Below are positions 33,074-38,049 of a DNA stretch of 43,635 bases, piece by piece (positions within the stretch are counted from its first letter, which is position 1; every line of letters starts with the position of its first letter). The DNA is taken from NCBI GenBank assembly GCA_022703355.1, contig JAKLDU010000009.1, positions 1-43,635 of the forward strand, written 5' to 3'. This DNA comes from Deltaproteobacteria bacterium. Lineage in GTDB: Bacteria > Desulfobacterota > Desulfomonilia > UBA1062. A model generated the notes under the pieces. That model searched no databases and was not told the DNA's origin. It saw only the letters and a program-made list of their open reading frames with translations. The translations under genes and the position numbers were made by a program.

Positions 33074-33769
33074 TCAGTCGGCCGCCTGGTCCCCCTGGGC
33101 CAGGGCCCCGAGCGCGGACCTCTCGAGGATGCGGATGGTCCGGCCGTCCATGCTCAGCACGCCCTCGTCGGACAGCTTGCGGAACACCCGGGACAGGGTC
33201 TCGGGGGTCGCCCCGATGATCTTGGCCAGCTCCCGCTGGGAGAAGGGGAGCTCGAAGGAGTCGCCCTGCCCTTCCTTCGCCAGGGAATGGGTCAAAAAGA
33301 TCGCGAGGCGCTGGGGGATCTCCTGCAGCGAGAGGGCCTCTATGACGGCCAGGGCCTCCTTGAGCCTCCGGGACAGGGCGAGCATGATGCCGAAGAGGAG
33401 CGCCGGCTCCCTGCGGGCCACGCCCTCCATGACCTCCGCCGGGAAGAACAGGATGCGCGTGTCCTCCAGGGCCGTGGCGCTCGCGGGCGAGTACTCGTCG
33501 GCAAACGCGGTGAGGCAGAAGAGCTCGCCGGGGCCGAACACGAAGATCGTCTGCTCCCTGCCCTCGGGCGAGCTCTTGAAGATCTTCACCCGTCCCCACA
33601 CCACGAGGTAGAAGCCCGGCGAGTGGGCCATGTCCTCGAAGACCTGCCTGCCGGGCCTGACGCTCTTCTGGCTCGCGCATTGGGCGAGGACCCTCAGCTG
33701 GTCCTCGGGCAGGCCGCCGAACAGGGGTATGTGCCGCAGCACCTCGAAATTGTCCATGCCTTCCCTCAT
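33074..33769 (-). CDS. Crp/Fnr-family regulator with FNR-type DNA-recognition helix
   Basis: A 231-residue transcription factor. Residues ~10-125 form the cyclic-nucleotide-like sensor domain (HIPLFGGLPEDQLRVLAQ, GRQVFEDM, WGRVKIFKSSPEGREQT, FGPGELFCL), followed by the long dimer helix and a winged helix with SQRELAKIIGATPETLSRVFRKL. The E-T-L-S-R helix has the Glu, Ser and Arg that read TTGAT in FNR. The N-terminal Cys cluster of true FNR is absent, so it may sense NO or another signal (Dnr-like) rather than oxygen by an FeS cluster. An FNR box lies 12 bases before its start, suggesting self-control. Confidence 0.93.
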   Translation of the reverse strand: MREGMDNFEVLRHIPLFGGLPEDQLRVLAQCASQKSVRPGRQVFEDMAHSPGFYLVVWGRVKIFKSSPEGREQTIFVFGPGELFCLTAFADEYSPASATALEDTRILFFPAEVMEGVARREPALLFGIMLALSRRLKEALAVIEALSLQEIPQRLAIFLTHSLAKEGQGDSFELPFSQRELAKIIGATPETLSRVFRKLSDEGVLSMDGRTIRILERSALGALAQGDQAAD

Positions 33770-33780
33770 TCAAAGATTCC

Positions 33781-33794
33781 TTGATATGGATCAA
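33781..33794. promoter_or_regulatory. Perfect FNR-type box
   Basis: TTGATATGGATCAA is an exact TTGAT-N4-ATCAA palindrome in the divergent gap between the Crp/Fnr gene and the selenoprotein gene. A TATGGT at 33821-33826 would put the plus-strand RNA start near 33830, so the box is centred about 41-45 bases upstream, the position of class II activation. Confidence 0.75.
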
Positions 33795-33877
33795 TGTGTT
33801 TTTATCCCATCCGGGCGAGATATGGTAATGAAAATTCCTGCAGGCCAGGAAAAACCATCCCAAGGAGGAAACCGCCC

Positions 33878-34165
33878 ATGGTAACGCTCACCAGGTCGGG
33901 CAAGAAGCAGCTCGACAGGCATTACGACGGCAAGGCCGCCCCTCTCCTGCGCATCTACATGACCTACGGCTGAGGGGGTCCGCAGCTGCGGCTGGCTCAG
34001 GATGAGCCAAAAGAGGACGACACCAGGTTCGAGGCCGAGGGCTACACGTTCATCGTGGCAAAAGACCTCGAGGCAATGGCGGGAAGCATCACCATCGACG
34101 CCTCGTTCTCCGGCGTCAAGATTCATTCGGACCTCAGCAAAAAGAGCGGCGCCGGCTGCTGCTGA
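33878..34165 (+). CDS. HesB/IscA-like selenoprotein, in-frame TGA read as selenocysteine
   Basis: A 95-residue IscA/HesB-like protein, a family that binds or carries Fe or FeS clusters with three cysteines. AAGGAGGAA precedes the ATG at 33878. Codons 25-32 read RIYMTYG then TGA (33971-33973), after which the frame continues GGPQLRLAQDEPKEDD, FEAEGYTFIVAKDLEAMAG and SITIDASFSGVKIHS to a C-terminal GAGCC and a TGA at 34163-34165. In Cys homologues the TGA position is the first ligand Cys (G-C-x-G-P). The sequence directly after the TGA can fold: CCGC/GCGG (33980-33991) and GGCTCA/TGAGCC (33994-34008). I read this as selenocysteine 32 rather than a broken gene because similarity is intact on both sides. 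Confidence 0.88.
33971..34008 (+). promoter_or_regulatory. Candidate bacterial SECIS element
   Basis: The 38 bases from the TGA can form a CCGC-AGCT-GCGG hairpin (33980-33991) with an outer TGAG/CTCA pair (33971-33974 with 33996-33999). The alternative is a GGCTCA-GGA-TGAGCC hairpin (33994-34008). Distance and size are right for a bacterial SECIS that SelB binds; the exact fold needs computation. Confidence 0.55.
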
Positions 34166-36300: not shown

Positions 36301-36393
36301 TCCCCCTCGCGTGTGAACGAAGGGGAGCTAGGCAAAGAGCATCACGGCGTTACTATATACATTCAGGGGCAGCAGGAAACGGGGAGGACGGGC

Positions 36394-38049
36394 ATGGCCA
36401 CGCTGATCGACGACAAGCTGAGAAAAGAAATCGGGGCGCTCTTCAACACCCTCGAGGAACCGGTTCGGGTGCTGCTCTTCACCCAGGAGGCCCCCTGCGA
36501 AGCCTGCCGCCAGCAGGAGGAGCTCTTGAGGGAGGTCTGCGGCCTCTCGGACAGGATCACCCTCGAGGTGCACGACCTTTTGAAGGAATCGGGCCTGGCA
36601 GGCACCTACGGGATCAGCAAGGTGCCGGGCACCGCCGTGATGGGCGCAGAGGACCGCGGCATCCGCTTCTACGGCGTCACCGCGGGCTACGAGTTCTCGT
36701 CCCTCCTGGAGGCGCTCATCATGGTTTCCCGGGGCAAGTCGGGCCTGAGCGCCGATCTGGAGGACCTCCTCCTGCTCGTCGACGTCCCCGTGCACCTCGA
36801 GGTCATGGTGACGCTGACCTGCCCCTACTGCCCCCGCATGGTCCACCTCGCCCACCAGATGGCCATGGCCCGCGACACCATCACCGCGGACATGATCGAC
36901 TCCGCAGAGTTCCCCCAGCTCGTGCAGCGGTACTCCGTGCAGGGGGTGCCCCGCACGATGATCAACGAGGTCTCGGCCTTCGAAGGGGCCCTGCCGCCCC
37001 TGGACGCCGTCATGGAGGTCCTCAAGGCGGTCAAGCCCAGGGAGTACGAACGCATCGACGCGCAGATGCGCACGTCCCGCGGCGAGATGCTCGCCTCGAA
37101 GGCCGACCCCCGGGTGACCTACCAGGTGGCCATCGTCGGGGCAGGCCCCGCGGCCATGACCGCGGCGATCTACGCGGCGCGGAAGGACCTGAAGGTCGCC
37201 CTCATCGGCGGGCACGTGGGCGGCCAGATCACCGACACCGCCGACGTGGAAAACTGGCCGGGCGTCCCGAACATCAGCGGCAGGGATCTGTCCGAGACCT
37301 TCCGGGCCCACGTGGAGCGCTACGCCATCGACGAACTCCTCGAGGTGAACGTGAACTCCGTGAAGAAGAACGGGGGCGCCTTCCAGCTGGAGGCGTCCGA
37401 CGGCACGGTCTACACGGCCAGCTCCGTCATCTTCTGCGCGGGCAAGCAGTACCGGACGCTGGGCGTCCCCGGCGAGAACCGCTTCGTCGGGAAGGGCATC
37501 GCCTTCTGCGCCACCTGCGACGCCCCCCTGTACCGGGACAGATCCGTGGCAGTGGTGGGCGGGGGCAACTCGGCCTTCACCGCCGCGAGGGACCTCCTCC
37601 CCTTTGCCCGGGAGATCCACCTGGTCACCCTGCTCCCCCAGTTCCAGGCCGACCCGCCCCTCGTCAGCGAGGTGACGGGCTCGCCCCGCGTCCACGTGCA
37701 CAGGTCCGTGCAGGTGAAGGAGTTCCTCGGCACCGACAGGCTCGAGGGCATCCGCGTGGAGTCGAACGACGGGAAGGAGCGCTTCGACCTCCCGGTGGAG
37801 GGGGTGTTCCTGGAGATCGGCCTTGACCCGAACACGAGCGCGGTCAGGGACCTCGTGGAGCTCAACGAAAAAGGCGAGATCCCCGTGGGGAGGGACCAGT
37901 CGACCTCCGTGGCGGGCTTCTTCGCCGCGGGCGACGTCACCGACGAGCCCCAGAAGCAGATCGTCGTGGCGGCGGGGGCGGGGGCGAAGGCCGCGCTCTC
38001 GGCGTACGAGTACGTGCTCGGAAGCACGCTCACGGTGCCGGGCGGATAG
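36394..38049 (+). CDS. Redoxin-thioredoxin reductase fusion
   Basis: A 551-residue flavoprotein. Residues 1-230 are two tandem thioredoxin folds like archaeal/thermophile protein disulfide oxidoreductase or AhpF-NTD, with CEAC (35-38) and CPYC (143-146), the second with a PRTMIN cis-Pro loop. From ~245 follows a complete thioredoxin reductase: FAD motif GAGPAAMTAAIYAARKDLK, redox CATC (372-375), GGGNSAFTAA for NAD(P)H, and GFFAAGDVTDEPQKQIVVAAG. So reductase and redoxin are in one chain, as in AhpF. The start at 36394 follows GGGGAGGACG; an in-frame start at 36313 has no similarity. Confidence 0.92.
   Translation: MATLIDDKLRKEIGALFNTLEEPVRVLLFTQEAPCEACRQQEELLREVCGLSDRITLEVHDLLKESGLAGTYGISKVPGTAVMGAEDRGIRFYGVTAGYEFSSLLEALIMVSRGKSGLSADLEDLLLLVDVPVHLEVMVTLTCPYCPRMVHLAHQMAMARDTITADMIDSAEFPQLVQRYSVQGVPRTMINEVSAFEGALPPLDAVMEVLKAVKPREYERIDAQMRTSRGEMLASKADPRVTYQVAIVGAGPAAMTAAIYAARKDLKVALIGGHVGGQITDTADVENWPGVPNISGRDLSETFRAHVERYAIDELLEVNVNSVKKNGGAFQLEASDGTVYTASSVIFCAGKQYRTLGVPGENRFVGKGIAFCATCDAPLYRDRSVAVVGGGNSAFTAARDLLPFAREIHLVTLLPQFQADPPLVSEVTGSPRVHVHRSVQVKEFLGTDRLEGIRVESNDGKERFDLPVEGVFLEIGLDPNTSAVRDLVELNEKGEIPVGRDQSTSVAGFFAAGDVTDEPQKQIVVAAGAGAKAALSAYEYVLGSTLTVPGG

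Follow-up and report, generated by a model that had tools for sequence, protein, structure and literature searches.

HesB-like selenoproteins are already known as a family. A 2006 survey lists them in several Deltaproteobacteria (PMC1794560), in keeping with an earlier note on the DNA studied here, which had placed them among the families found in prokaryotic selenoproteome surveys, and a 2026 review gives them with the motif UxGP (PMC13188914). In M. maripaludis a HesB-like selenoprotein was identified by mutagenesis and 75Se labelling. A mutant with this gene disrupted was not impaired in nitrogen fixation (PMC11097638), and we count that result against the explanation preferred below. Curated profiles exist as well, among them NF038090 (IscA_HesB_Se) and TIGR01911.

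The window is the whole stretch of DNA that was analysed, 43,635 nucleotides of a contig from a Deltaproteobacteria bacterium. On its forward strand, at 33878 to 34165, lies a HesB/IscA-like gene that is a new member of this known family, in a divergent subclade that uses selenocysteine (Sec) only. Genes of this kind are known; what is new is this member and the regulatory setting in which it lies. In the open-access literature no description of this clade or of its regulatory coupling was found.

The gene starts at ATG 33878, has an in-frame TGA at 33971 to 33973 (residue 32) and stops at a terminal TGA at 34163 to 34165. Reading through the first TGA yields a product of 95 residues, as the earlier note had proposed, and the strong ribosome site it had described is there too: AAGGAGG at 33862 to 33868 on the same strand, with a spacer of 9 nucleotides. 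The protein ends in Cys94-Cys95 (34157 to 34162), putative further ligands or resolving thiols. The column of Cys95 is invariant, that of Cys94 is not. The Cys-Cys end is therefore real in this protein but not a family-wide trait: it is found in 3 of 10 orthologues, and the others have a single Cys near the end.

With the TGA translated as Cys, the product matches NF038090 over model positions 1 to 101, at 65-66 bits (66.2; E 2.5e-18). This match spans the whole length, so that the claimed similarity to IscA/HesB on both sides of the TGA holds. PF01521 also matches the read-through product (E 0.006), and the UxGP motif is present at the first ligand position, as U32-G-G-P. The NF038090 score stays below the curated cut-off of 85 bits, which by NCBI's rule makes the protein a divergent relative, and in a genome scan all ten clade members stayed below that cut-off. 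For TIGR01911 the score is 18.5 bits, with a curated cut-off of 66.35. Given these scores, members of the subclade are likely to be annotated as truncated proteins, or missed. What they share with NF038090 is the full-length match, Sec in the same column and a C-terminal Cys. They differ from it in their UGGPQLRLA(Q/L)DEP core, their short C-terminus with one or two Cys, and their FNR-type box and divergent regulator. TIGR01911 proteins share the UxGP motif (here UGGP) and the relationship to IscA, but the archaeal SECIS is mostly in the 3'UTR, whereas the SECIS found here is bacterial and inside the coding sequence. The same genome has a second HesB-like selenoprotein gene (C204, L017:1501-1812), which at 99 bits is over the NF038090 cut-off and has one TGA. 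Across the phylum, 183 of the 395 genomes sampled have a HesB-like relative, and most of those listed have one in-frame TGA.

By sequence and by model, the protein takes the IscA fold. An AlphaFold model computed from the ten clade sequences has a pLDDT of 86, and its best PDB matches are 1x0g, 1r94 and 2d2a, all IscA or SufA (E 1.6e-6 to 1.7e-5). A profile search arrives at IscA from sequence, and in the HMM alignment to E. coli IscA (1s98/1r94) the Sec column falls on the first ligand Cys, which is where the earlier note had placed the TGA. The likeness to E. coli IscA (1r94, 1s98), SufA (2d2a) and the [2Fe-2S] IscA (1x0g) consists of the fold and this aligned residue. Unlike these proteins, the one studied here has Sec in place of Cys and no C-x-C end, and identity is about 18-26%. 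Canonical IscA ends in Cys-Gly-Cys, the clade in Cys-Cys (3/10) or a single Cys. In the orthologue alignment the ligand pattern of A-type carriers, C-x(n)-C-x-C, is absent; U32 is there, and the chain ends with either CC or one C. In the model the Cys-bearing C-terminus is flexible (pLDDT under 50).

Decoding UGA as Sec in bacteria involves a hairpin, the SECIS. The published bacterial model has a loop of 3-9 nucleotides, a stem of 4-16 bp, a G in the first two loop positions, a spacing of 16-37 nucleotides and a minimum free energy (MFE) of -7.5 or lower (quoted in PMC13188914). A standard SECIS of this type, which the earlier note had asked to be predicted, is present at 33994 to 34008 on the forward strand. 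It reads GGCUC-AGGAU-GAGCC, with GG in the apical loop and an outer U-A pair at 33993/34009. Its stem of 5-7 bp, its GG, its loop start about 26 nucleotides behind the UGA and its energy of -10.0 kcal/mol all fall within the published limits. A hairpin after the TGA thus exists as was claimed, but the one that the family conserves is not the G+C-rich one directly behind the TGA. At 19 nucleotides this hairpin is more stable than all 200 shuffles (z -3.7); a 48-nucleotide fold of the region is no more stable than shuffles (z -0.88).

Of the 55 Sec genes compared, 54 retain the hairpin, and every one of its five inner pairs can form in at least 54. It is absent from four Cys and four Trp (TGG) relatives. 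Over 25 distinct sequences 98.7% of cells pair and three pairs have changed on both sides, values that 0 of 500 shuffles reached. Most of the compensatory changes are contributed by two genes, the genome's own second copy C204 (UUUCUC/GAGAAA) and G056 (GGUUC/GAACC), which means that the covariation, though real, has few events behind it. Codon choice is the stronger evidence for a SECIS. The stem needs the Ala codon GCU, and 52 of the 55 Sec genes use it, although in five genes of the window it accounts for just 1.0% of Ala codons.

The source genome is a draft of 2.23 Mb in 242 contigs, 80% complete. It contains selB (342 bits, over the cut-off) and a tRNA-Sec, selC, with anticodon UCA (75 bits). 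Neither selA nor a true selD was found in this 80%-complete assembly. Two selD candidates were rejected: L020, with a score of 66, falls short of the cut-off of 125, and L021 resembles PurM and has PurN as its neighbour. Both selA and selD are present in each of the seven congeners, whose selD genes themselves hold one in-frame TGA. The most simple explanation for the missing pair is that the assembly is incomplete. A search for all four genes had been suggested, and two of them are in the genome itself while the other two are known from its congeners; taken together, this makes a complete Sec machinery probable. Three genomes that are 98-99% complete (G014, G016, G021) have in-frame-TGA HesB genes and selD, and no match to selA.

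Of 60 genomes of relatives scanned, 43 contain members of the HesB-like family, and many of these members have a single in-frame TGA. Ten genes are of the window type: six in the genus (G000, G001, G003, G004, G006, G007) and four in the family (G008, G012, G013, G014). All ten of these intact clade members, the window gene and nine orthologues, have the TGA at the same codon, and it is also kept in most of the wider HesB-like family. The orthologues are 44-67% identical to the window protein. The best relative, at 66-67%, is so across both sides of the TGA; a scan of genome contigs gave one relative only, the G007 locus. Downstream of the TGA pairwise dN/dS lies at about 0.15-0.6 and does not differ in range from the part upstream, so purifying selection acts on both sides. 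An eleventh copy (L086, in G005) is frameshifted and has lost both TGA and hairpin, with regulator and box intact; either G005 can do without the protein or its assembly is in error. Intact relatives with a plain stop at this position were not encountered, and in the broken G005 copy the TGA itself is gone.

In a tree of 97 proteins the window gene groups with seven others (support 93/86; inner seven 98/91), and G012 and G008 are placed less certainly. The sequences leave room for a single origin of all ten window-type genes. No Cys orthologues of this clade were found in the class; in the wider family homologues carry either Sec or Cys at the TGA position. The wider family also holds some unusual members. 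Sec has been lost naturally in four paralogues of a sister family (L044, L045, L046, L048), which have TGG (Trp) where the Sec UGA would be and whose SECIS has decayed. Elsewhere a HesB-like gene with Sec and one with Cys stand in tandem (L123, L124, L125, L131, L133, L140, L144, L052, L089, L090), and such pairs possibly encode partners in hetero-oligomers. Deviant HesB-like TGA genes without any C-terminal Cys also exist (L084, L085, L056).

The earlier note had read this gene as a Sec-containing HesB/IscA-like protein. That reading is supported as a whole: of the three things that would have told against it, a genome without Sec machinery, a lack of homologues with Cys or Sec at the TGA, and relatives with a plain stop, none was found. 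It did miss what lies upstream. The intergenic region between the selenoprotein gene and a divergent gene is 108 nucleotides long, and that gene, at 33074 to 33769 on the reverse strand, encodes a Crp/Fnr-family regulator of 231 residues (cNMP_binding and HTH_Crp_2 domains, ETLSR recognition helix, conserved Cys85). In the divergent promoter region, at 33781 to 33794, there is an FNR-type box, TTGATATGGATCAA, the only perfect copy in the assembly. The consensus TTGATnnnnATCAA is found in all ten clade members, nine times perfect and once degenerate (G007), 79-97 nucleotides upstream of the ATG. Around 55 other HesB-family genes were checked and none has such a box within 220 nucleotides. The perfect box occurs once in the source assembly (G000) and once in G001 (100% complete), again in front of the selenoprotein gene; in other genomes of the family it occurs 2 to 17 times.

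A divergent Crp/Fnr gene is present at nine of the ten clade loci and at the broken G005 locus. These regulators keep Cys85, and their recognition helix follows the pattern E-[TS]-L-[SN]-R. At the G007 locus, the one with the degenerate box, a dehydrogenase gene takes the regulator's place. At sequence level the arrangement is of the Fnr type, a TTGATnnnnATCAA site adjoining a Crp/Fnr protein with an E-x-x-S-R recognition helix. The N-terminal Cys cluster that holds [4Fe-4S] in E. coli Fnr is absent from the regulator, which has only Cys31 and Cys85. Nothing relevant on Fnr-linked selenoproteins was found in the open-access literature. What follows downstream varies with the locus: the window has tRNA-editing and amylase-like genes, G001 has Fe-S and cytochrome b genes, and G003 has a MASE3 sensor. 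Further downstream in the window, at 36313 to 38049, there is an AhpF-like disulfide reductase (Thioredoxin_3 and Pyr_redox_2 domains).

Could the TGA simply be a stop? A fragmented draft assembly and a broken orthologue in G005 are what one would point to if the gene were a pseudogene or an assembly error, with residual similarity downstream. The same TGA is however present in nine other assemblies, and its conservation, the purifying selection behind it and a conserved SECIS with compensatory changes weigh heavily against this; the chance left to it is very small. Just as improbable is a decoding of the TGA that inserts Trp, Cys or some other amino acid, be it genome-wide or by leaky read-through. 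The paralogue group with TGG at the Sec position would fit such decoding, but TGA is an ordinary terminator here, also for this very gene, and tRNA-Sec(UCA) and SelB are present. Genes with UGA, moreover, retain the hairpin and those with UGG or UGC/UGU do not, and together with the SECIS covariation this leads us to reject alternative decoding. From the sequence evidence the gene is real and its in-frame stop very probably read as selenocysteine, and it is nearly certain that this is a selenoprotein gene.

What the Sec does is less settled, and here the alternatives weigh more. The protein could have the HesB fold and use Sec as a catalytic redox residue, forming a selenenyl-sulfide with the C-terminal Cys under peroxide or nitrosative stress, and not as a metal ligand. 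Many selenoproteins are homologous to thiol oxidoreductases (PMC13188914), the Cys-bearing C-terminus is flexible with one C-terminal Cys alone invariant, and an Fnr-type box implies a redox-linked regulon. Yet the motif is UxGP, with no CxxU or UxxC pair nearby, and both the fold and the place of the Sec match the metal site of IscA. We therefore consider catalysis the unlikelier role and a metal-handling one, like that of IscA, reasonably probable. There is a similar minority case for the box serving only the divergent regulator by autoregulation, or a global Fnr, with no role for the selenoprotein gene. In the window it is closer to the regulator, which starts at 33769, and box and regulator are kept in G005, where the selenoprotein gene is broken. 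Against this, G007 has no adjacent regulator and still has a degenerate box upstream of the selenoprotein gene, and the box precedes all ten clade genes and is near no other HesB gene checked. Control of the selenoprotein gene by the adjacent Crp/Fnr protein through the box is, judging by these sequences, likely.

The best explanation as a whole, to which we give a probability of roughly 0.7, is a Sec-containing A-type protein with a role as Fe or Fe-S carrier, controlled by the divergent Crp/Fnr protein. SelB and tRNA-Sec would decode the UGA at residue 32, aided by the SECIS hairpin 26 nucleotides downstream, as the sequence data support. Alignment and model place Sec at the first metal-ligand Cys position, with one or two Cys at the flexible C-terminus. 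The protein would most likely be a homo-oligomeric iron or Fe-S carrier, or a factor in Fe-S maturation or repair, whose selenolate ligates or releases the metal. The Crp/Fnr-family protein probably binds the box between both genes and controls transcription, in a direction that we can only presume. The carrier may then be made on an anaerobic, redox or nitrosative signal; the site and its co-conservation are observed, the nature of the signal is our supposition. That this amounts to a dedicated module, a Sec-only IscA-like subclade with its own divergent Crp/Fnr sensor and a box that in some genomes is the sole perfect one, has slightly better than even odds.

HesB-like selenoproteins are widespread in the phylum, and this subclade is liable to be missed in annotation. 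The conserved box, and the promoter region that this gene shares with the regulator gene, make the function of the HesB-like selenoprotein family testable through this gene. Its close coupling to a single regulator and a single DNA site gives a direct way to learn under what conditions, and for what reason, a cell would want selenium in an Fe-S-type protein. If true, the selenoprotein-regulator module would place Fe-S or iron handling by a selenolate ligand under the influence of a redox or NO signal.
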